Shown: positions 3,493 to 19,922 of the stretch, piece by piece
Layout: each line of letters opens with the position of its first letter
Numbering within the stretch: position 1 is the first letter of the stretch
Translations under genes and position numbers: made by a program
IMG/VR virus record: IMGVR_UViG_3300000576_000019
Coordinates: 2,948 to 26,912 of that record
DNA from: a virus
Strand: one strand, 5' to 3'
DNA: 23,965 nucleotides
Notes under the pieces: model-generated
What the model saw: the letters and a program-made list of their open reading frames with translations, nothing else
Databases searched by the model: none
Told to the model about the DNA's origin: nothing

Positions 3493-4191
3493 TTACTCAC
3501 CGTCTTCGGTGACGATGTCCCAACCATCTACCATTTCTTGGCTAATGCCACTGATTGATGTTAAGTCATTGATGGATTCCCATTCTCGCCCATCAATAAT
3601 ATCTTGTGCTCTAGCCTCATCAATGCCATGAAGACTTCTCAACTCATCCAATGTCGCTGTATTAACGTTGATAGATCCACTAACCGATGGTAACTCTAGC
3701 CCTACATCAATGACAAAATCACATGTCATAGTTGTTTGTTCAAAAATCGGGATATTCCACTGCCCACTGTGGTCGCTACGCTTTTCTAAACGACCAAAGT
3801 CGTCTTCATCTGGAACACCATCAATTTTTATATTTTCGTTAGGATCGGATATAATTAATCCAGTTTCACTATCTTCAACATGCCGAACATTGAGCAAGGT
3901 AGGGTTTTCTAAATCTTCATCTCCAATATATGTGGTTTCGGTATTTGTGTATAAAATATTACCAGATACCGCTGTTATAGACAAAGCGTGTGTGCCCGCC
4001 TCATCTGGTGCAATCCACTCTGCAATAACCGTCTCACCTTCAACATCTGAACCAGAGTAATTCATCGATTGTGTAGTGTCAGTCACAATGACACCAGAGT
4101 TAATTAATTCACCATCAACTCTTACCTCGATCTGAGCATCATCACCCGATTCATCGAATCCAACACCATAAAACAAAATCTTTCTACTCAT
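3493..4191 (-). CDS. CBM-like beta domain with ComEA-like helix-hairpin-helix tail, 232 aa
   Basis: Residues 1-90 form a beta domain (GDDAQIEVRVDGELINSGVI, later DEAGTHALSITAVSGN) resembling calcium-dependent carbohydrate-binding modules that bear a DAQIEVxVDG strand. Residues about 174-226 are a clear helix-hairpin-helix pair of the ComEA type: INVNTATLDELRSLHGIDEA, then a second hairpin DLTSISGISQEMVDG. ComEA-type domains bind DNA non-specifically. No signal peptide is visible. An AAGGA ribosome site precedes the ATG, which overlaps the stop of the ADP-ribosyltransferase-like gene (ATGA). The first 11 residues are identical to those of that neighbour. Here they read as a natural first strand of the beta domain. 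A virion protein touching both glycans and DNA is inference. Confidence 0.6.
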   Translation of the reverse strand: MSRKILFYGVGFDESGDDAQIEVRVDGELINSGVIVTDTTQSMNYSGSDVEGETVIAEWIAPDEAGTHALSITAVSGNILYTNTETTYIGDEDLENPTLLNVRHVEDSETGLIISDPNENIKIDGVPDEDDFGRLEKRSDHSGQWNIPIFEQTTMTCDFVIDVGLELPSVSGSINVNTATLDELRSLHGIDEARAQDIIDGREWESINDLTSISGISQEMVDGWDIVTEDGE

Positions 4192-4192
4192 T
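4160..4192 (-). repeat. Duplicated gene-start repeat, copy 1
   Basis: This 33-base exact repeat is shared with 4531-4563. It covers the ATG, nearly 11 codons (MSRKILFYGVG) and one base upstream of the ATG. The flanking bases differ on both sides. The ribosome sites lie outside the repeat and are different. Confidence 0.95.
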
Positions 4193-4562
4193 TTAATTCC
4201 TTTATCATCTCAGGGTTAAACAAGTCATGATCATGATAAACCAAAGCCTCTTTACCACTCACACCATGCAACCCAGCCTTCTTGTCATTGAAGAAAAATA
4301 ACACCCGATCACCATAGGTCTCTGAGGTTGGATCTTCATCAATAGCATTGTCACCCATCTCACTTTTGGGCAAATCTATGTAATATACATAACCATATGC
4401 TCCCGCATATTCTCTCGCCAATTCTACACTATCAGTCCAAGTACTATATCCCCGCATAGCATCTGTCGTTGATAAATCATAATCGGGATCAAACTCTCTC
4501 TCCAACCCACGATATAATCGTATCTTATCACCAACACCATAAAACAAAATCTTTCTACTCAT
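4188..4562 (-). CDS. ADP-ribosyltransferase-like protein, 124 aa
   Basis: After an 11-residue leader shared with its neighbour, the protein has LYRG at residues 16-19 (R18 as the possible first catalytic residue). It then has GYSTWTDSVELAREYA with S40-T41 at the start of a helix, and YGYVYYIDLP as the following strand. GKEALVYH near the end contains E105. This R, S-T, E order and spacing fits the R-S-E class of mono-ADP-ribosyltransferases, to which T4 Alt, ModA and ModB belong, but the usual E-x-E is reduced to one Glu. A GGAG ribosome site and a CATAAATA box lie upstream, so expression is late. Targets are unknown. A similarly folded non-enzymatic domain cannot be excluded. Confidence 0.5.
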   Translation of the reverse strand: MSRKILFYGVGDKIRLYRGLEREFDPDYDLSTTDAMRGYSTWTDSVELAREYAGAYGYVYYIDLPKSEMGDNAIDEDPTSETYGDRVLFFFNDKKAGLHGVSGKEALVYHDHDLFNPEMIKELK

Positions 4563-5940: not shown

Positions 5941-7512
5941 TCAAAATTTATACACCCACCGCTTTTTCCCACAATCCCAAATTTTTAACAAACCCATTTC
6001 CAACGTTATTTGCCGTTCTGTCTTAGCTAGATCATAACCTTGTTCAACCAATTTGTGTTTTGCAAAATTATACCTATGATACAATCGTTCGGTGTGTGGT
6101 CTAAGATACCAATAACTTGGTGCTATTTCATTTTCTAAATCAAATCCCAAAACTCTATACAAATTTCCATCACTCCACTCGTTATCAGAGTATGAAATTA
6201 ATTTTTTGACACTGTTATTTTTTAAAAAATGCTTCAATAACTTACTAGCACCACCAACAACTCTGCCACTGCTAGCAAACCGTACTAATTCATGAGCATC
6301 TTCGTTTACGCCCATCCCAGTTCTGCTTTTACTAAAAGTCATCAAAGCAACAAGTTCATTAGCATGCACTAAACCATAACGAATACTTGATGTAGTGTAT
6401 CCCTGTATGTGATGCTGATCTAAAAATTCTCTAGCTTGGGAAGACATAACATCAACTACGGAACACTTTCTCGCAAATACCGATTTCTCACTAATGCCAA
6501 TACGATTTCTTATTATATTCTTTACAATGTCTTGCTTAGATTTCCACTGTGTTGAAAATATTGTAAGCAACTGTATTCCATTAGACGCACACTCTTCAAA
6601 TTTATTCTTATGATAACTTCTTGTAATATGATCAATTCCATCATGGTGCCAATAAACGCCATTGTACTCAATAGCAAGATCATAATCTGGCAAATATATG
6701 TCCAATTCCTTTCTAGACTTTAAAATTTTTCTAGAATTTTCTACTATATTAGTGACACCCTCATCCTTGAGAAAATTTACTACCTCCGCCTCTTCGCTAG
6801 ATTTATAAGGAGTTCGCAGGTTATGCATATTCAAATGTCTGTATACAGTTTGAGGATGAACTGAAAGTTTTTTAGATATTTCCTCAATTGAATAAGTTTT
6901 ATATAACTGCAACAGAGTTTCTTTGTCTTGCAATTCCGCAATTCCTTTTTCAGGATATCGAGATTCCCAATAGTCTACGCCATAAGTTTCCTTAAACGTG
7001 CGCTTTATCTTTTCTGGGTTATTATAGTTTGCATCTCCATACTTTCTCAGCTTCGTTTCTCTAGATTTAGAATTGGCAGAATGAACCAATTCTGGGTTTT
7101 CATAAAACTGCCGGTGTTTTAGTTTTGCGTATTCTGTCTGTCCATTATTTGTCACACCATACTTCTGCAAAGACGTATTTTTGCGCTTTTCATTTATCTC
7201 TTCATGGCGAAGTTTTGAATAAGCCTTTTTAGTTTGGGAAATTTTTTTTGCGACTTCTTCCTTAGCACATGCACATTGCGAAACTTTGTCACAATATCCA
7301 TACCCAGATAAAACAGATTTGAACTTTTTAACATTGCCTTTTAAGCATATTGAATCAGCTGAGTACAGTGCGTTATAAATTTTTTCAGGAAAATTATCGG
7401 TATCAACATCTGAGTTTTCTTCAACCCAAGCATATAACTCCGGATTGCCTTTAATCATTTTAGAAAAATGCTTTGGCTTTTTCTCAATTAATTCAAGTAT
7501 TCTTTCTCTCAT
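5941..7512 (-). CDS. Free-standing homing endonuclease, EDxHD (VSR-like) type, 523 aa
   Basis: I choose ATG at 7512 (MRERILELIEKK) over an in-frame TTG at 7548. Residues about 75-185 have a Cys-containing N-terminal domain and repeats with T-x-L-x-K-Y-G, as in phage homing enzymes. A helix-turn-helix follows (YSIEEISKKLSVHPQTVYRH, about 208-227). The nuclease core is at about 268-325: KELDIYLPDYDLAIEYNGVY, then WHHDG and LLTIFSTQW. This fits the EDxHD family of I-Bth0305I, related to Vsr nucleases. The C-terminal half (LMTFSKSRTG, ELVRFASSGRVVGGASKLLK, LISYSDNEW) is a GNAT-like domain often attached to such enzymes. No ribosome site is seen. It lies directly after the gp23 terminator, a common homing position. 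Confidence 0.8.
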   Translation of the reverse strand: MRERILELIEKKPKHFSKMIKGNPELYAWVEENSDVDTDNFPEKIYNALYSADSICLKGNVKKFKSVLSGYGYCDKVSQCACAKEEVAKKISQTKKAYSKLRHEEINEKRKNTSLQKYGVTNNGQTEYAKLKHRQFYENPELVHSANSKSRETKLRKYGDANYNNPEKIKRTFKETYGVDYWESRYPEKGIAELQDKETLLQLYKTYSIEEISKKLSVHPQTVYRHLNMHNLRTPYKSSEEAEVVNFLKDEGVTNIVENSRKILKSRKELDIYLPDYDLAIEYNGVYWHHDGIDHITRSYHKNKFEECASNGIQLLTIFSTQWKSKQDIVKNIIRNRIGISEKSVFARKCSVVDVMSSQAREFLDQHHIQGYTTSSIRYGLVHANELVALMTFSKSRTGMGVNEDAHELVRFASSGRVVGGASKLLKHFLKNNSVKKLISYSDNEWSDGNLYRVLGFDLENEIAPSYWYLRPHTERLYHRYNFAKHKLVEQGYDLAKTERQITLEMGLLKIWDCGKKRWVYKF

Positions 7513-7563
7513 GTTGATAATTATACATTTGAAGCAGAGGTAAAACAAATTGTTTTATTAGAC

Positions 7564-11738: not shown

Positions 11739-14627
11739 CTAAGTTTCTTCTGGTTCCCCAGCACCCATGTCATCACCGCCTTCCATATCACCGATATCAA
11801 GATCATCACCTTCTAAATCTAAATCCATGGCATCGGCAGTTTCTAAATCGGCATCAAAATCACCTGGCATCATGCCGACTGAACGCAGATCTTGCCCACT
11901 CGCCTCTAAATCACCTGCTCGATCTTGTTCTTCTGCCCATAGGGTTTCGTTTTCAACAATTTCTTCTTCAGTTAATCCCAAGAATCGCTTAAGAGCAAAG
12001 CGTTTACTCATGTATCCAAGTCCTTCTATACTTTGAAAAGCATTAATTCTGGTGCCATCCAACTCGGCTTGGCGGTAACTAGCAAAGTTTTGTGGTGGAG
12101 TGAATGTCAAGTCAAAAAGACCAGCGTCAATGTTGAATCCTCTCCAACGAAGAAACATTTTAAATTCATCATCAAGTTTTTGTATTATCAAACGTTGGAG
12201 TCGCTGACAATATTGATTGAACCGATGCTCTTGTATAAGAGCAGTTCCCAGTCTTCCATCATTAGAAGTTCTTTCAGAATCTTCGGGTCCGGTTGGCAAA
12301 TAACTAGAAGGAACTCGTAAACCACGTGCTAATTTGTTATTAAAGTATTTGAGATCGTCAATTTCACCTAGATTTTGACCACCAGGTAATACCTCTACTG
12401 AACTACCTCTACCGTCAGAGTTATGCACAAAAATTCCCACGGTTAAGGCAAAGTTATGACTGTTGCTAGCTGATTCAATAGTAATATCACCAGTATCAAT
12501 CACGTCTTCTAACCACTCAACCGAAATTATTTTGTGATTTGGGGCATAACTTTCTTTGAAATCTCTCCAATCATCATAACCCATATGCACTGCCATTTTT
12601 CTCAGTGATGTGTCTGTAGGCAACATAATGTCGGGTCGGTTTTTATCTCTTACAAGGTTTTTATTGGCAGATTTAAACTCTTGTTGAAATTTGTCATCTT
12701 CTCTTAGTTTTTTGACTAATTTGGGTATGCTGTCGTAACCATCATCATATAGTTCAACTAACCGATTACACATACCATCTGAAATTGAAATAGTTTTTGC
12801 TTTAATAACGCGTTGTCTAGCCTTTTCTAACGATTTTAAAACTTTCTCAGCACTTTCTTTATTTTTCCAAGTGTTTGCGCCATTGATTCTTCCTCTCTCA
12901 GCAAACATTTTTTTGTCAAGATCAGTTGCGTTTTTGTGGTATTCTCTAATCCCATCTAAAAGATTTTGTCGTTTTTCACGGTCTTTCCATGCATTCGTTA
13001 GATGATATGACCCCAAATCTTTATGTAATTGCCTATGTTCGACTGTATCCATTTCTACCAAATTGTCTGGATTATTATTTCGACTATTGCAGTCTATATG
13101 ATGTATTTCTGTATTTTTTCCAGCGATTTGTTTAGGACATACCATAGTATGCACCCATTTTTTCTTGTTATCCGAAGGACAAGTGTACCGCAAGTACTTG
13201 TTTGAACCTTGATACTTAGAAGTACTAGCATCATGCAAATACAATGGCATTACACTATCACCAGCTTTAAGGTGTTGTGCCTCAACTTCACCGCCATCTC
13301 GCATGATGAATCTGTGATCTGGGGTGCATGTAACAGATTTGCCATTGTCCAGCGTGACTTTGACCACTTGTGCGTTTCTTCTGGTTACACCCGCCCATAC
13401 TATTTTACCAGGCTCTAATTCTTGTGTTTGTTGATTTACCGTATAAGCATAATTGGTCTTTCCTTCATTATACTCTTTGATTATTTCACTTAGCGGCAAG
13501 CTTCTATCATCAAGTAACTTGACTTCTGTGTCCAAACTGAGACAGGAATGAGGAAAAAAATAATCTTCGTGCATAGACAATGGGTTATAACTGGAATCCA
13601 AAATGCTATCACCACCACCATCAGTAGTAGGTATTCTACGCTGATGAATTTCATTTTTAATACGTTCAACAAACTGCATTGCATGATGGGCTGGCATATC
13701 ACCAGTGTCTATTTTAAAAACACGCCGCTCTGGTGCACGTTGTACTCGATAGATGAGAATGGCATCCTCAAGCAATTCTTTCTGCTTAAAGACTTTGAAT
13801 ACCATTTCAAGAATACTCTGACCAAATGGCCAATACACATCTAAACCTTCAGATAAACTAATATGAATAACGTGCTTGGCATCTATACACATTTCATTCA
13901 CAGAGGTAGAAAATCTACCCTGTTGTCCCAATGGTGCATTTGGTACAGTTCTGTTATACTGAGTTTGATAACCACCTGATGTAGGGGTTACCTGATGATC
14001 AGTGGTAGTTTTTGGAGCTACTGTAAGGTTTTGGAAATTTGGATTAACATCCTGAACCACGTATTGTTCTGGTTCCTTTCCTTCGCTTTCATTAACAATT
14101 ACTCGATTAACCTTAGTCATGTCAACCCAGTACATCTCAAATGTTTCTGGATCTCGTAAAAAAACCTGATCGCCATATTTTATAGCATTTCTAAACAATT
14201 TAAACAGTCTTTGATCTAACTTGTTTAGTTTTGACCACTGTTTCAACTGCTTTTTAAGGATTTCGACCTCATTATCTGTGGGGTCATCATGAAAATTTAA
14301 CTCAAACGGAGTGTCATTCTTTTCGTTATTTTGTGTACAAAATTCCGCCAATATATCCAAGCATGCATTGATTTCAGCATCCATATCCATATTTTCATAT
14401 TGGTTATAACGCTCAACACGATTCGGATGTCCGGTATACACCTCGGGTAGACGACTTTGGTAGTTGCGGAAAGATACCTCGGAACTAGAACCAGAACTAC
14501 CATACCCAGTTCCGTAGTTAATCCCCCGATTAGTATTTCCAGATATTGGACTAAGAGTACCACCGGGATCGGCTACTTTGAAATACTTTTTCCATCCGCC
14601 TTTGTTTGTTTTGGTCATTTTAGACAT
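11739..14627 (-). CDS. 20: Portal protein gp20 interrupted by an intein
   Basis: The 962-residue frame is a T4-type portal protein split by an in-frame intein (residues 362-736). The N-extein has typical gp20 segments: NMDMDAEINACLDILAEFCT, DQRLFKLFRNAIKYGDQVFL, and GQSILEMVFKVFKQKELLED then AILIYRVQRAPERRVF. The C-extein has the gp20 hallmark VEVLPGGQNLGEIDDLKYFN, then KLARGLRVPSSYLPTG, and ends in an acidic tail. After splicing it would be 587 residues, close to other marine gp20 proteins and longer than T4 (524). The portal is the dodecameric head vertex that nucleates assembly and passes DNA. Only a weak ribosome site (AAAGAA) is seen. It is first of the head operon. Confidence 0.95.
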   Translation of the reverse strand: MSKMTKTNKGGWKKYFKVADPGGTLSPISGNTNRGINYGTGYGSSGSSSEVSFRNYQSRLPEVYTGHPNRVERYNQYENMDMDAEINACLDILAEFCTQNNEKNDTPFELNFHDDPTDNEVEILKKQLKQWSKLNKLDQRLFKLFRNAIKYGDQVFLRDPETFEMYWVDMTKVNRVIVNESEGKEPEQYVVQDVNPNFQNLTVAPKTTTDHQVTPTSGGYQTQYNRTVPNAPLGQQGRFSTSVNEMCIDAKHVIHISLSEGLDVYWPFGQSILEMVFKVFKQKELLEDAILIYRVQRAPERRVFKIDTGDMPAHHAMQFVERIKNEIHQRRIPTTDGGGDSILDSSYNPLSMHEDYFFPHSCLSLDTEVKLLDDRSLPLSEIIKEYNEGKTNYAYTVNQQTQELEPGKIVWAGVTRRNAQVVKVTLDNGKSVTCTPDHRFIMRDGGEVEAQHLKAGDSVMPLYLHDASTSKYQGSNKYLRYTCPSDNKKKWVHTMVCPKQIAGKNTEIHHIDCNSRNNNPDNLVEMDTVEHRQLHKDLGSYHLTNAWKDREKRQNLLDGIREYHKNATDLDKKMFAERGRINGANTWKNKESAEKVLKSLEKARQRVIKAKTISISDGMCNRLVELYDDGYDSIPKLVKKLREDDKFQQEFKSANKNLVRDKNRPDIMLPTDTSLRKMAVHMGYDDWRDFKESYAPNHKIISVEWLEDVIDTGDITIESASNSHNFALTVGIFVHNSDGRGSSVEVLPGGQNLGEIDDLKYFNNKLARGLRVPSSYLPTGPEDSERTSNDGRLGTALIQEHRFNQYCQRLQRLIIQKLDDEFKMFLRWRGFNIDAGLFDLTFTPPQNFASYRQAELDGTRINAFQSIEGLGYMSKRFALKRFLGLTEEEIVENETLWAEEQDRAGDLEASGQDLRSVGMMPGDFDADLETADAMDLDLEGDDLDIGDMEGGDDMGAGEPEET
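12420..13544 (-). other. HNH-containing intein in gp20, 375 residues
   Basis: The intein starts with Cys362 (CLSLDTEVKLLDD, block A). It has block B CTPDHRF with the T-x-x-H signature, and ends NFALTVGIFVHN with the penultimate His and terminal Asn of block G. The +1 residue is Ser737. Between these is an HNH endonuclease segment (residues about 507-536): EIHHIDCNSRNNNPDNLVEM with a later EHRQLHK. A helical DNA-binding region follows (EKARQRVIKAKTISISDGMC onward). The splice joins MHEDYFFPHS to SDGRGSSVEVLPGG, restoring the conserved portal loop. All splicing residues are present, so it is probably active. No frameshift or stop is seen in the endonuclease. Confidence 0.93.
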
Positions 14628-14642
14628 ATTCTTTATTTACCC

Positions 14643-17102
14643 TTATGCATAAGAGTTCTGAAGAATTTTACTCATGATGCTATTATTAGATTGTGTCACC
14701 TGAATCAACCTATCCAATCTAGTTATCTGATCTTTCAACGCAGAAATTTGCTCAACGCTGTATCTAAGCATTTCTGTATCTTCGTTGATAAGTTGAGGGG
14801 TTGGTGTTTGTCTGTCAGATACAGCAGTTAAGTCTTCTATAGAACTTATAGTTTCCGCTAACTGTTGCATGGGTGTGGCTATGCTCGATTCCAAACTAGA
14901 TATAGAATTCGCTATATTAACCCCAGACAGTTGTCGTAATGCTGTAGTAATTTGCCCTTCAAGATTGGATTGTGGATTATCTCCTGAAATTTCTCGTAAT
15001 GCAGTCATCATTTGCTGTTGAAGATTGGATTGTGGATTATCTCCTGAAATTTCTCGTAATGCAGTCATCATTTGCTGTTGAAGATTGGATATTGTTACCG
15101 GTATACTTCCACCAGAGAGTGGTACAATTGCTTCTGTACCGTGCAACTCAGCAAAATAACCGGATTCTGGACCAGTAGCGATGCCACCTTTTCTGAACTC
15201 TCCAGCAGTCCCGAGTTGAGATCGTAGTTGTTGACGTATTTCATCCTTGAATTCTTCACCAGATGATATGTTACCGTCAGTCTGTTTTCCAATTAACCCC
15301 ATAACAATTTTGCCAATGTTCTCTGGGGTAGGCTCTAAAATCTGAGTTGAATCAACGCCCATGTATCTAGAAATTTCTGCTGCCCAATCACCAGATTCAT
15401 TTTTGGGAGTAGAAATCATTTCTCCAACAGTCAATTCACCAGAAGATAGTACAGCATTCATGTGACTTACCAATTCGGTTATTTCGCTATTGCCGCCACT
15501 GTCCTCGCGTCGTTGTCGCGTTCCTCTTGTTGAGATATTGTTGGATTGTTCACCGGATGATCTATTGGCTCGGCTTCCTCTGCGCGAAGCACCAGATGGT
15601 GTACCATCATCCCGAAAATTTCCTTGGCCATCGGTTAAGCCAGCGCCAAATGCTCCAGCAGCAGCATCTGATATGCCCTCAAATGTCTTCGCCAAGGTTA
15701 ATGAAATCTTGTTCAATCCCATAAAATTTTGAATAATATCAGATAAATTCTGAGATTGATTGATTTGTAATTGAGTTAAATCCACTAAAGTTTCTAGATT
15801 GCCTTCTGGTTCTTCTATTTCACCAGTCTGAATTCTTCTAGCTTCCTGTATAGACTCAACGAAATCTTTTTGGGCAAGAATTGCGGCTCTCGCCATTGTG
15901 GCATACTCAACAAAAACACCTGATGCTCCTAGTGCCCCTACTTGGGGTAGACCTGACTCACGGAGCCCAACCGCCGACTCGCCTAGTGCCTCCGCAACGC
16001 GTTGTAGAGTTTCCTCATCAGTTGCTCTGCCTGACTCAAAATCAGCAGCAATTTTCTGAATACTTTCCGAACTCATGCCCGTGCTGACAAGTAATTTTTG
16101 AGCATCTTCACTTGTTATAGCACCACCCCCAGCAAGAATGTCCCTAAATCCTTTTGCCACTGTGTCATCAAACAAGTTGCCCATTGCACTGGTGAGAACC
16201 TCGGCTGATAATGCAAAATCACCCCTGCCTTGTGCTCGTAGTGTTGCTGTATAAGCTCGGAAACGTTCTTCTTCTCGCATAGAGCGTATTTTGTCTTCCA
16301 ACGCTTCTCTTTCAATTCCCGTCGCCTTGGTTAAAGCATTGATTTCTTTTAAATAACTCCCAGTCGCGTTTGCCAAACTAAGTGCGTTTCTTTGTTGTGT
16401 CATACCAACTTCAGATTGCATGCCGACGAAGTTCACCATTGCTTCGCTTATGCCTTCCGCACTCATGCCCAACAACATTAATTGGCGCGTTAACCCAGTC
16501 TCACCCTTCATTTCAGCGCCAATAGACGCTAATTCTTTTCTTGCATCACCGACGGTGTGTTGGAATAAGGCAAGAGATTCTGACTGATTACCAATCATTC
16601 TAGCCATTTCCATTAACTGGACTGTGGTTAAATTCAAACCAATTACCGTGTGTGCCATGCCTTCTAGACCGTCATTGGCAGTGGCACCAAATCTCTGCAA
16701 TTCTCTTAGGGCATTATATTGTTGATCTGCTTGATCACCTACTACAACGGAAAGTTGACCAAATGCTTTTGTCACTGCGCCTGCAGCTTTGCCTAAAGGT
16801 CCTAGTGTGCTTAAAAAATTTCCGGCAGATTTTGCCGCATCATTTACTGACCTTCCCATCACACTAGCACCGCGCTCTCCCTGCTGAACCGCGCTAGTAT
16901 ATGAGAGCAATGAGTTACCCAAGCCTTTGAACATCCTAGAAACTTTGTTAGATTCAGATGAAGACTTGCTTAATTCTTTATTAAATTCCGATAAGGACTC
17001 ATGCGTTTCGTCTGAAACTTTATTTCTCTCTTCAAGTTCACGATTTGCACGTTCTAGTAATTCCCGAAACCGTTCTAATTCTTCAGAAGTCCAATCATCC
17101 AT
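14643..17102 (-). CDS. Tail tape-measure-like structural protein, 819 aa
   Basis: I take ATG at 17102 (MDDWTSEELERFRELLERAN); the longer frame to 17147 crosses the late box region. An N-terminal coiled coil (1-60) is followed by Gly/Ala-rich, weakly hydrophobic helices (AAKSAGNFLSTLGPLGKAAG, then AVTKAFGQLSVVVGDQADQQ). The middle is helical (100-480) and a Ser/Arg/Gly linker follows (about 500-560). The signature GGIATGPESGYFAELHGTEA then IVPLSGG is typical of tape-measure proteins. A 20-residue repeat (about 675-735) and a C-terminal coiled coil follow. It would set tail length or fill the tube. T4 itself uses gp29 for that role, so equivalence is inferred from the motif. It is divergent from the gp26-like gene. 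Confidence 0.75.
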   Translation of the reverse strand: MDDWTSEELERFRELLERANRELEERNKVSDETHESLSEFNKELSKSSSESNKVSRMFKGLGNSLLSYTSAVQQGERGASVMGRSVNDAAKSAGNFLSTLGPLGKAAGAVTKAFGQLSVVVGDQADQQYNALRELQRFGATANDGLEGMAHTVIGLNLTTVQLMEMARMIGNQSESLALFQHTVGDARKELASIGAEMKGETGLTRQLMLLGMSAEGISEAMVNFVGMQSEVGMTQQRNALSLANATGSYLKEINALTKATGIEREALEDKIRSMREEERFRAYTATLRAQGRGDFALSAEVLTSAMGNLFDDTVAKGFRDILAGGGAITSEDAQKLLVSTGMSSESIQKIAADFESGRATDEETLQRVAEALGESAVGLRESGLPQVGALGASGVFVEYATMARAAILAQKDFVESIQEARRIQTGEIEEPEGNLETLVDLTQLQINQSQNLSDIIQNFMGLNKISLTLAKTFEGISDAAAGAFGAGLTDGQGNFRDDGTPSGASRRGSRANRSSGEQSNNISTRGTRQRREDSGGNSEITELVSHMNAVLSSGELTVGEMISTPKNESGDWAAEISRYMGVDSTQILEPTPENIGKIVMGLIGKQTDGNISSGEEFKDEIRQQLRSQLGTAGEFRKGGIATGPESGYFAELHGTEAIVPLSGGSIPVTISNLQQQMMTALREISGDNPQSNLQQQMMTALREISGDNPQSNLEGQITTALRQLSGVNIANSISSLESSIATPMQQLAETISSIEDLTAVSDRQTPTPQLINEDTEMLRYSVEQISALKDQITRLDRLIQVTQSNNSIMSKILQNSYA
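14961..15090 (-). repeat. Exact 60-bp tandem repeat within the tape-measure gene
   Basis: 70 bases (14961-15030) recur without any mismatch 60 bases later (15021-15090). Each unit encodes NLQQQMMTALREISGDNPQS. A third, diverged unit (NLEGQITTALRQLSGVN) lies just after it in the protein, at about 14901-14960. The lack of silent changes points to a recent duplication that adds a helical repeat. Confidence 0.97.
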
Positions 17103-17126
17103 TTTAAAATACCCATTATATGCGTG

Positions 17127-17167: not shown

Positions 17168-18007
17168 ATGACTGAACACAACCCGTTAGCAGGATATTTT
17201 AGACAACCCGCAATTTATATCAGCCTTCCTAGTGAAGGGAAATGGTACAAAGATAATGCGATTGAAATGAGTGAAAATGGGGAGTACCCAGTTTATCCCA
17301 TGACAGCAATTGATGAGATAACATATAGAACACCAGACGCACTGTATAATGGCAGAGCATTCGTAGATGTCATTAAAAGCTGTGTCCCTGATATCAAAGA
17401 TGCATGGAGTGTTCCTAGCTGTGATATTGACACTCTATTAGTTGGAGTAAGAATAGCGACATATGGTCATGAAATGGAAATTCATTCAGAATGCCCAAAG
17501 TGTAAAAGTGATGAGTCAAGAACTCTTGATCTACGACAGGTAATAGATAGATTAAAAACGCCCGACTATAGTAGCCCTGTAGTAAAAGGCAATTTGAATA
17601 TCTATCTCAGACCATTGAATTACAATCAGTTAAACAAAAACAACGCTATTCAATTTGAAGAACAAAAATTAATGAATCTTCTTCCAGATACGGAACTTGA
17701 TGAAAAAGAAAAAATATCACGCATGGCAGAAGCAACAAATGCAATTACAAATATGACAGTGTCTGCACTTGCAGATAGCATAGTATCTATTGTTACACCT
17801 GACCAAACAGTTACTGACAAGGAGCATATTTTAGAATTTTTGAAAAATACTGATCGAGGTATGTTTGATTCAATTCGTTCTAAAATCGTAGAATTGAAAT
17901 CTATGGCAGAAGTACAACCATTGCAAATTGAATGCAGTAATTGCCAGCATCAATATCAGCAAGGATTCACACTAGACATGTCAAATTTTTTCGGAGCCGT
18001 CTCTTAA
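17168..18007 (+). CDS. 26: Baseplate hub assembly protein, gp26/T4_baseplate family, 279 aa
   Basis: The N-terminus FRQPAIYISLPSEGKWYKDN, then YPVYPMTAIDEITYRTPDAL and YNGRAFVDVIKSCVPDIKDA, is characteristic of the T4 base-plate protein family containing gp26. The central LLVGVRIATYGHEMEIHSEC leads to a Cys pair C109-x2-C112. A second pair C256-x2-C259 near the end probably completes a zinc site. In T4 this protein acts in building the baseplate hub. A GGA ribosome site and a perfect late box precede it. The end carries a slippery sequence and a stem-loop where a -1 shift would fuse it to the following frame, giving about 351 residues. T4 gp26 itself is 208 residues. Confidence 0.8.
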   Translation: MTEHNPLAGYFRQPAIYISLPSEGKWYKDNAIEMSENGEYPVYPMTAIDEITYRTPDALYNGRAFVDVIKSCVPDIKDAWSVPSCDIDTLLVGVRIATYGHEMEIHSECPKCKSDESRTLDLRQVIDRLKTPDYSSPVVKGNLNIYLRPLNYNQLNKNNAIQFEEQKLMNLLPDTELDEKEKISRMAEATNAITNMTVSALADSIVSIVTPDQTVTDKEHILEFLKNTDRGMFDSIRSKIVELKSMAEVQPLQIECSNCQHQYQQGFTLDMSNFFGAVS

Positions 18008-18021
18008 TACAAAACTCCGAA
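17983..18021 (+). promoter_or_regulatory. Candidate -1 ribosomal frameshift site with stem-loop
   Basis: The gp26-like frame contains A-AAT-TTT at 17983-17989, a canonical X-XXY-YYZ heptamer. T-TTT-TTC immediately overlaps it. A perfect 7-bp stem TTCGGAG (17990-17996) / CTCCGAA (18015-18021) follows with an 18-base loop holding the zero-frame TAA at 18005. The -1 frame is open from well upstream (17941) to 18222. The spacer is shorter than the usual 5-8 bases unless the stem base melts. Confidence 0.5.
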
Positions 18022-18033
18022 GAAATCAGCGAA

Positions 18034-18222
18034 ATGATCGACTCAATGGAGAAAGAGGCGGCAAGTATAAGACAAGAAATAGTCAAGATGTGTTGGTTCA
18101 TGCGGGGAGGATTAACTTATGATAATGCTTTATATCTCAGTCCTCATGAAAGAGATCTCATTTCAAAATTAATCAAAGAAAATTTAGATACAACCAAGAA
18201 AACAGGATTAAATTTCTTTTAG
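18034..18222 (+). CDS. Small baseplate-region protein with WFMRGG motif (stand-alone or frameshift extension)
   Basis: From ATG 18034 it is 62 residues: MIDSMEKEAASIRQEIVKMC then WFMRGGLTYDNALYLSPHER, ending DTTKKTGLNFF. The same frame is open upstream across the end of the gp26-like gene, so it could be read as a -1 extension adding 77 residues. The C-W-x-M-R-G-G and ending K-K-x-G-L-x-F-F are patterns I recall from small proteins next to gp26-like genes in marine T4-like phages. Ribosome sites before ATG 18034 and ATG 18046 are poor, which favours coupling or frameshifting. It is adjacent to the tape-measure gene, so a tail-assembly chaperone role is possible. No specific function is known to me. 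Confidence 0.65.
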   Translation: MIDSMEKEAASIRQEIVKMCWFMRGGLTYDNALYLSPHERDLISKLIKENLDTTKKTGLNFF

Positions 18223-18266
18223 GCAATAGAACTCCATTACCACAAACCATTCATTTTTCCTTTCTT

Positions 18267-18290
18267 AAAACCCCAAGTAAAACCCCAAGT
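18267..18290. repeat. 12-bp exact tandem repeat
   Basis: Two consecutive copies of AAAACCCCAAGT follow the plus-strand baseplate genes. No function is evident. Confidence 0.8.
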
Positions 18291-18328
18291 AAAAAACTTT
18301 TTCTTCTCTATGATTCCACTCCTTTGGA

Positions 18329-18378
18329 GATGGGCTAACGCCCATCTATTGTTTCGCTATCGCTCAACAATGATTTTT
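18329..18378 (+). terminator. Probable terminator region after the baseplate genes
   Basis: A perfect stem GATGGGC-TAAC-GCCCATC lies at 18329-18346. It is followed by a second hairpin with ATTGTT/AACAAT arms (18348-18371) and TTTTT at 18374-18378. The strong first stem lacks an adjacent T-run and the second stem is weaker, so termination is probable but not textbook. It would end the plus-strand late transcript from 17127. Confidence 0.5.
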
Positions 18379-18566
18379 AATCCCAAGAGGTAATGAAACT
18401 AAAAGATAACAATATTGAATCTAAGAACATATCATCTAGATTAAGCGGGCACACTTAGGCCCCGTTAAGGGGCAAGAAGCAGTAACACATCATCTGAGTA
18501 TCACAGGCACACAACATTAGAACTATATGCTTTGTAATAAAAATTAAACCATTAAATAATTCAATT

Positions 18567-18885
18567 ATCATTGCAAAACACGCGAAGGCGGTTGTCCGGT
18601 ACCTTCTCGTTCAGTCTTAACAACGGCAGCTCACTATACAAATGTTGTCTCATATAGCAAACCTGGGCATTATCCCATCATTTCCATCAAGCGTTCTTGA
18701 TCAACCATTCCGACTACACTAACGTTTCTGCACAAAGGCACGACGTTTAAGGCATCCCAGCAGCACTGGGGTAGAGTGTAGAAGCGAACAATGAGCAGTC
18801 CGATTGCTTTTCCCCTTACATCAAGAGGAATGAGCAGTACGATATTATTCGGCGTACCAACCTTTATCTCATTTGTGCTTTTTTT
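18567..18885 (+). ncRNA. Candidate structured RNA
   Basis: A run of compact hairpins lies here. They are GAAGG-CGG-TTGT-CCG-GTA-CCTTC (18584-18606), TGGG/CCCA (18664-18677), ATCAAG-CGTT-CTTGAT (18686-18701), and a TTCC-CTT / AAG-GGAA stem (18810-18830). There is also a possible three-way junction: CTACACT/AGTGTAG (18714-18720 with 18775-18781) enclosing AACGT/ACGTT and CCCAG/CTGGG. A TTGTAA-17-AATAAT promoter-like pair (18532-18560) precedes it and a T7 run lies at 18879-18885. AATGAGCAGT-N-CGAT occurs twice (18790, 18829). The strand is uncertain, since a minus-strand transcript would fold similarly. I recognise no known RNA family. Confidence 0.35.
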
Positions 18886-18966
18886 GTTTTATTAATTTTC
18901 TCTAATAAAGTTTTCCTTAATTTCATTAAATGTTTTTTTGCCTATATGTTTTTGATTTTGTTATTA

Positions 18967-19352
18967 GCCTAACTGTGATTAACCGTCACCCTAGAGCTTC
19001 TGTTAAACAGTGTTTGCTATACTATTTTTGCCTTGGTATTAGCCTTGTGTAGTATTAAAGCCTATTGAAAGCCTATATTAGCCAATTTTTGAGTCAATGT
19101 ATGAGCCATTACTATTATTTGCTAACTGTATTCAATGGTCACCCTAGAGCTTCCACTAAATTGTGTTTGCTATAATAATCTTTGCCTATTAGTATGCCTG
19201 ATTTAGCCTAGATGAAGTATTTTAAAAATGTTTTTTAGAATGCCTGAATTAGTGTTATTTTATTAGCCTGATTTAGCCTAGATTGAGTTTAGTTATTTGT
19301 TATAAAGCCTGTAGTTAATTTTTTAAGCCTAAGTTAAGTATTGTTTTAGCCA
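18967..19352. repeat. Array of short GCCT (AGGC) motifs
   Basis: I count 16 GCC trinucleotides in 386 very AT-rich bases, 13 of them GCCT and many as TTAGCCT. They start at 18967, 19030, 19042, 19060, 19071, 19081, 19105, 19184, 19196, 19206, 19242, 19266, 19276, 19307, 19327 and 19349. Spacings of 10-12 and 18-24 recur. An 18-base unit GCCTGATTTAGCCTAGAT is exact at 19196-19213 and 19266-19283. On the minus-strand transcript the motif is AGGCUAA. Confidence 0.75.
18969..19187. repeat. 65-bp imperfect direct repeat, two copies
   Basis: Copies lie at 18969-19033 and 19122-19187, about 153 bases apart. Both contain CTAACTGT, then GTCACCCTAGAGCTTC, then GTGTTTGCTATA, and end TTTGCCT. Copy 1 holds the palindrome CTGTTAAACAG, which is broken in copy 2. 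Each carries a -10-like TATACT or TATAAT on the plus strand but no matching -35. Confidence 0.8.
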
Positions 19353-19360
19353 TTTGAATC

Positions 19361-19389
19361 ATTATATGAGTATATTATCTTGTTGTCAA
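19361..19389 (-). promoter_or_regulatory. Perfect-consensus sigma70 promoter
   Basis: On the minus strand, TTGACA (19389-19384) is followed by exactly 17 bases and TATAAT (19366-19361). Both hexamers are full consensus. It lies 6 bases past the stop of the nuclease gene and would start an RNA near 19354 running into the gene-free region. The same strength is typical of T4-type early promoters. Confidence 0.85.
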
Positions 19390-19394
19390 GTGTT

Positions 19395-19922
19395 TTAATT
19401 TTTTTCTTGTTTACAAAGTTGCCTAACATTTTCCGAGTTTAATTGCCAAAATCGTGTGTTTTCCATTATAAGCCATGTTGTGTTATTGGTGCTTTCGTAT
19501 ATAAAGTGTTTATCATAGTTAAGTGTGGTGTTAATATTTTTTATTTGTGCTGCTATATATGTGCCTTTTCGGTTAAACTTCATAAAAATAATATTAAAGT
19601 CTTCTGGATCTGCTGGATCTAAACACTGTTCTATCCAAGTATCTAGTAATTTCACAGATCCAGAAAAGAGTTGGTGAAAGGGAAACTCTTTGTAACTCTT
19701 GCATTCCGCATTCATTAGGGGAAAACTTAGTCCTGGTATAATATCGCCTTTAAAGGTTCTTATTTGTCCTTCGTGCAGATATTCTTTTCTCTTTGAGTTG
19801 CCACCACCTATATATGCACCTGAACCAGGCGCTCGCAAGAACTTCTCTCCATATAAATTGGTCAAAAAGTCTGCGGTTTGTCTTTCAAAACTATTTCCTT
19901 TGTTTTTACTTGGTGATGGCAT
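19395..19922 (-). CDS. PD-(D/E)XK nuclease, Holliday-junction-resolvase-like, 175 aa
   Basis: The N-terminal half has the order of an Hjc-like resolvase: KNKGNSFERQTADFLTNLYG with E13, R30-APGSGAY as the loop, FKGDIIPG with D60, and MNAECKSYKEF with the E73-x-K75 signature. The later part (FNIIFMKFNRKGTYIAAQI) supplies further strands. T4 resolves branched DNA with endonuclease VII (gp49). This enzyme could replace it, which would match its place beside gp46. Its ATG follows the stop of the radical SAM gene directly (TAAATG), so the two are translated from one message. A non-specific nuclease role is the main alternative. Confidence 0.75.
   Translation of the reverse strand: MPSPSKNKGNSFERQTADFLTNLYGEKFLRAPGSGAYIGGGNSKRKEYLHEGQIRTFKGDIIPGLSFPLMNAECKSYKEFPFHQLFSGSVKLLDTWIEQCLDPADPEDFNIIFMKFNRKGTYIAAQIKNINTTLNYDKHFIYESTNNTTWLIMENTRFWQLNSENVRQLCKQEKN

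Follow-up and report, generated by a model that had tools for sequence, protein, structure and literature searches.

In phage lambda, the tail assembly proteins gpG and gpGT are the model system for two products of one gene, a short form and a long form extended in the -1 frame (reviewed in PMC5009743). Phage T4 differs: gp26 and gp51, described as hub assembly chaperones (PMC3004832), come from two separate genes with no frameshift, and in the same 2010 review gp51 is listed as essential and of unknown function. Tail assembly chaperone genes of T4-like phages were identified by Vladimirov, Gautam and Davidson (Virology, 2022), as cited in PMC10885494 and PMC12846349; going by its title, that paper concerns a mechanism other than frameshifting. 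The PRFect paper describes separate short and long genes in some T4-like phages (PMC10885494), and the paper on Pseudomonas phage Adele cites Vladimirov et al. when it attributes slippery poly-T signals to the TAC-N genes of T4-like phages (PMC12846349). For Adele and the Vandenendeviridae and Andersonviridae, which are other families than the T4-like phages considered here, the latter paper reports that a -1 frameshift is conserved in the TAC-N gene, at the poly-T motif GTTTTT. Because of the 2022 paper, as it is cited, the general kind of system is already known, and the earlier note on this DNA went too far in treating a T4-like counterpart of G/GT as something new. What this analysis adds concerns only the jumbo lineage, the RNA signals and the pattern across the phylogeny.

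We analyzed a stretch of 23,965 nucleotides (the window), part of a 26.9-kb virus record from IMG/VR. Judged from its sequence and that of its relatives, this jumbo T4-like locus very probably encodes two tail assembly chaperones through programmed -1 ribosomal frameshifting. Like lambda G/GT, it is a single gene with a heptamer near its 3' end, a short and a -1-extended long form and a presumed role in tail assembly. It differs from lambda in that the predicted slip is from TTT TTC to TTT TTT, the neighboring gene is divergent, and the match of that neighbor to tape-measure proteins is weak.

Layout of the locus

The features of the locus are collected in Table 1. As the earlier note had claimed, the -1 frame is open ahead of the gp26-like stop: it opens at 17941, 64 nt before the TAA, and continues to 18222. 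Two heptamers in this region are in zero-frame phase, A AAT TTT (17983–17989) and T TTT TTC (17986–17992). The arithmetic of the ORFs agrees with the proposed fusion, 273 + 78 = 351 residues with the junction SNFFRSR. The note was also right that the downstream ORF has no good ribosome site. The first ATG in the -1 frame is codon 17 past the heptamer, and no Shine-Dalgarno match of at least 4 nt was found at any candidate start of the extension. A tRNA scan of the whole window found none.

Table 1. Coordinates of the predicted frameshift locus and its neighbor in the window
Feature	Position	Strand	Description and evidence
Zero-frame gene, gp26-type hub/tail assembly chaperone (short form)	17168–18007	+	279 aa; C-terminus zinc-ribbon-like; PF12322, phrog_150, AF2/BFVD
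Slippery heptamer T TTT TTC	17986–17992	+	Zero-frame codons 274–275; conserved and phase-locked in 35 representatives
-1 frame extension, C-terminal domain of the predicted long form, gp51 C-terminus-like	17986–18222	+	78 aa (FFRSRLL...LNFF) plus stop; pooled-family profile match to gp51 200–252
5' arm of predicted downstream stimulatory stem, GCCGTCTCTT	17996–18005	+	RNA fold against dinucleotide and synonymous-codon shuffles
3' arm of predicted downstream stem, AAGAGGCGGC	18053–18062	+	RNA fold against shuffles
Zero-frame stop TAA	18005–18007	+	4 codons past the heptamer
7-bp hairpin of the earlier note	17990–18021	+	Shares bases with the heptamer; pairing in 60% of cells over 22 relatives
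820-aa neighbor, virion-protein-like, divergently transcribed	14643–17105	-	Weak phrog_10613 match; positional counterparts in PA5oct and 121Q

The match of the 820-aa neighbor to the PHROG tape-measure family reaches an E value of only 0.011. Its positional counterparts in PA5oct and 121Q are annotated as structural proteins, the one in 121Q belonging to a family that PHROG names 'virion structural protein' and places in its head and packaging category. Downstream of the extension, a region of some 1.2 kb (18222–19395) shows no clear gene and contains two diverged direct repeats, one of 61 nt (79% alike, at 18969 and 19122) and one of 23 nt (91%, at 19196 and 19266).

Elsewhere in the window, the portal (gp20) gene (11739–14627, minus strand) is predicted from its domain matches to carry an intein and, within it, an HNH endonuclease (Intein_splicing, residues 373–736, E 2.2e-13; HNH_3, residues 504–527). 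An ORF amid the structural genes (5941–7548, minus strand, 523–535 aa) has a helix-turn-helix and the nuclease-like stretch IEYNGVYWHHDG, and is possibly a free-standing homing endonuclease. Two overlapping minus-strand ORFs, 3493–4191 and 4188–4562, share their first 11 residues (MSRKILFYGVG) and then diverge; the longer of the pair has a helix-hairpin-helix motif at its end.

The slippery site across relatives

Slippery-looking motifs are common in single sequences, and the window alone does not decide whether this one is a chance run or whether an error of sequencing or assembly has split one gene. We therefore turn to relatives drawn from IMG/VR and GenBank phages. Across a first survey of 137 non-T4 loci, near-duplicates included, TTTTTTC stands in the same codon phase in 135, TTTTTTG in one and neither in one. 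Of 13 named phages in a second batch, four have no heptamer, and in the others its last base is C, T or G. Clustering at 70% protein identity left 35 representatives that carry the heptamer, all with NNT TTT TTN in phase (last base C in 31, T in three and G in one). In 35/35 a T stands directly before TTT, though the preceding residue differs (Ser, Asn, Asp, His or Tyr). With the representatives treated as independent and the five phages without heptamer excluded, the constant NNT codon before TTT has a P value of ~1.7e-8 (background 0.60 from codon use in the same genes), and the constant TTT as first Phe codon one of ~6e-10 (background 0.55). Because the same site and frame recur across relatives, in ~140 separately assembled loci with finished phage genomes among them, chance or an assembly error is refuted as an explanation. 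No locus turned up when the Vibrio 2.275.O protein was used for a scan.

The alignment of junctions, which the earlier note had suggested as a check, shows a conserved frame, with a conserved heptamer in all but five of the sampled non-T4 phages, and the comparative data support its central proposal of a -1 frameshift that fuses a gp26-type protein with a WFMRGG domain. The heptamer it named first, A AAT TTT, is present and in phase; the conserved one is T TTT TTC. Elsewhere AGT, TCT, GAT, CAT or TAT stands before TTT TTC, and A AAT TTT was rejected as the slippery site.

None of six T4-type loci examined has the heptamer. The five sampled phages that keep the -1 ORF and are missing the canonical heptamer (L051 and L148–L151: Cygsa01, Vibrio K469, Kuja, Salmonella allotria and Dickeya XF4) belong to one lineage, which includes Ackermannviridae. 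In this lineage ATT TTC or CTT TTT replaces the heptamer and the -1 frame domain is retained. In allotria and Kuja a nearby ATG is missing as well as the heptamer.

Predicted stimulatory signals and constraint on the -1 frame

In the window, a predicted stem (17996–18005 paired with 18053–18062) starts 3 nt past the heptamer. Folding of 17986–18070 against dinucleotide shuffles gives a z score of -2.43. Compared with synonymous-codon shuffles built from codons of the same genome, z is -3.42 and 0/100 shuffles are as stable; when the codon pools come from the whole clade, z falls to -1.42. The 3-nt spacer is unusually short, which counts against the frameshift reading. The stem is stronger than the 7-bp hairpin described in the earlier note, TTCGGAG (17990–17996) with CTCCGAA (18015–18021). 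That hairpin does exist and its loop holds the TAA. It is not conserved, and we rejected it as a conserved element on the overlap and pairing frequency given in Table 1.

RNAalifold found no common structure among 22 relatives, the arms varying from one to another. This null result apparently arises because the distance to the 3' arm varies, and a synonymous-codon shuffle test was used instead. For the 90 nt 3' of the heptamer in the 35 representatives, the mean z score is -2.42, and 26/35 lie at or below -1.64. Control stretches in the same test give means of -0.51 far downstream and -0.19 upstream. Some relatives (L030-like, L024 and RL38J1) have no structure signal in this test.

The cyanophages have a candidate signal on the other side of the site. 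The Glu codon four codons before NNT is GAG in 52/56 unique loci, compared with 329/1294 (25%) elsewhere. This codon places GGAGG, which resembles a Shine-Dalgarno sequence, 10 nt ahead of the heptamer; the spacing is similar in the frameshift of E. coli dnaX. The predicted stimulators, downstream structure and, in cyanophages, the Shine-Dalgarno-like element, thus adjoin the heptamer.

These elements also bear on whether the polymerase rather than the ribosome slips, in which case a mixture of mRNAs would yield the fusion by standard translation. The run at the site, six T in all 35 representatives and seven in three, would be the substrate for such transcriptional slippage, but six T is short for it. 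Moreover, the run is phase-locked to codons, and a 3' structure and a 5' Shine-Dalgarno-like element are stimulators of ribosomes. We consider transcriptional slippage very improbable.

All non-T4 phages examined, the 13 named phages of the second batch among them, have the extension in the -1 frame. Its length is 78 aa in those sampled members of the window's clade that are complete, and 79 aa in Phosso. From the heptamer up to the earliest possible ATG, column entropies at the three -1 codon positions are 1.12, 0.80 and 1.57, as expected of a coding frame. Just past the heptamer, the constrained bases of an Arg codon and of two Leu positions do not vary. As read from these alignments, constraint on the -1 frame begins at the heptamer, ahead of the zero-frame stop and of any ATG.

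This pattern is relevant to translational coupling, in which termination and reinitiation close to or at the zero-frame stop would yield a separate protein from the small ORF and no fusion would arise. Database records do list it as a separate CDS. An ATG lies near the stop in 14/36 lineages, overlapping or soon following it in Phosso, Atu_ph07, 121Q, KVP40-like phages and all sampled cyanophages; extension codons 3–8 contain no ATG in 22/36. A near-stop ATG is missing from the window, PA5oct, XaC1, SCTP-2, Aeh1, phiAS5, IC12 and Melnitz-2, and in PA5oct the stretch scanned contains no NTG start. In the window's clade the extension, an overlapping ORF in the shifted frame, shows selection and has no conserved start of its own; some other lineages have the ATG. 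The phages that do have an ATG (cyanophages, KVP40-like, Phosso, Atu_ph07 and 121Q) retain the invariant heptamer, selection on the -1 frame begins ahead of the start codons, and the T4 counterpart, gp51, is itself a fusion. Reinitiation also does not predict a slippery heptamer with structure downstream. Coupling as the sole mechanism is therefore very unlikely, if somewhat less so than transcriptional slippage. In ATG-bearing lineages reinitiation could yield a separate product besides that of the frameshift.

Relation to T4 gp26 and gp51 and the proposed mechanism

The short form matches PF12322, T4_baseplate (E 1.8e-16, 60.9 bits against a gathering cut-off of 24.5 bits), and the PHROG baseplate hub family phrog_150 (E 2.2e-17). 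Its AF2 model has a pLDDT of 87.9, and the best BFVD matches are T4-like baseplate hub assembly proteins. T4 gp26 and gp51 both match PF12322 and one another, and by sequence are paralogues, gp51 having about 50 more C-terminal residues. A profile of the predicted fusion, in a comparison that assumes the fusion, aligns with the gp51 profile over 244 colinear columns with a probability of 98.9, the C-terminal ~50 aa included. The pooled extension alone matches gp51 200–252 with a score of 43.9, where the best of 40 column shuffles reaches 13.6. Extensions from cyanophages, Aeh1 and KVP40-like phages match phrog_634, 'baseplate hub assembly catalyst', as does the C-terminus of gp51.

The extensions of the jumbo phages match gp51 weakly by themselves (23.8, best shuffle 18.2), and PHROG and Pfam scans assign the window's extension alone to no family. 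For this reason the link between window and gp51 rests on position and the pooled family. The window's extension also differs from gp51 in a longer insert containing the WFMRGG motif. Because the fusion family aligns with gp51 end to end and the short product matches gp26, the locus appears to encode a gp26-type short form and a gp51-type long form. This correspondence, suggested by the profile comparisons, would explain the pair and was missed in the earlier note.

Among solved structures, no relative was found by sequence and Foldseek gave no significant match. VIA-align superposes the HK97 gp13 tail assembly chaperone (PDB 2ob9) over 99/107 residues (Z 5.8, rmsd 4.4), within the range of chance matches. 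An AF2 model of a T4-type gp51 was too poor for use (pLDDT 57). In BFVD, Foldseek finds a gp26-like fold (E ~1e-8 to 1e-4) in uncharacterised proteins of 380–690 aa from other jumbo phages (Erwinia phiEaH2 and Special G, and Ralstonia RSL1, RSF1 and RP12); these are possible unrecognised tail chaperones.

In a maximum-likelihood tree, T4-type gp26 and gp51 group together (94/93), adjoining the frameshifting proteins of KVP40-like phages, Aeh1 and phiAS5, and the five heptamer-less phages group with phiW-14. The tree is midpoint-rooted, several of its forks are weak and two of its rows are long. It is consistent with a single duplication that took the place of the frameshift, and with the canonical site having been lost once. 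We think it likely, with less assurance than for the frameshift itself, that -1 frameshifting is ancestral for both chaperones across the T4 superfamily. On the same reading, the stimulators would be lineage-specific, with stem-loops in many jumbo phages and the Shine-Dalgarno-like element in cyanophages. Frameshifting would have been abandoned once, in T4 and its near relatives, upon duplication into the separate genes 26 and 51, and the canonical site would have disappeared on one further occasion, in the lineage that includes the Ackermannviridae; this order of events is one we infer.

The frameshift picture would also explain two earlier observations. Sullivan et al. (2010) described cyanophage gp51 as ~20% of the normal length, seemingly without its first ~200 aa, and scored Aeh1 as without gp51 (PMC3037559). 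In Aeh1 (L158) a gp51-like extension is present in the -1 frame just after 2217, unannotated and with no start near the stop.

We propose the following mechanism. The majority of ribosomes would terminate at 18005–18007 and release the 279-aa gp26-type short form. A fraction, aided by the stem spanning 17996–18062, would slip from TTT TTC to TTT TTT at 17986–17992 and read on to 18219, giving the 351-aa long form, the equivalent of T4 gp51. The slippage and its efficiency are our reading of the conserved signals. By analogy with lambda G/GT, both forms may act on the tape-measure/hub complex, the extension adding an interaction that would start tail assembly.

Phage annotation currently splits or misses this gene, the extension being entered as a separate hypothetical protein or as an 'assembly catalyst', or omitted, as in Aeh1. 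The proposed frameshift offers an explanation, open to testing, of the means by which jumbo and marine T4-like phages would make their counterpart of gp51.
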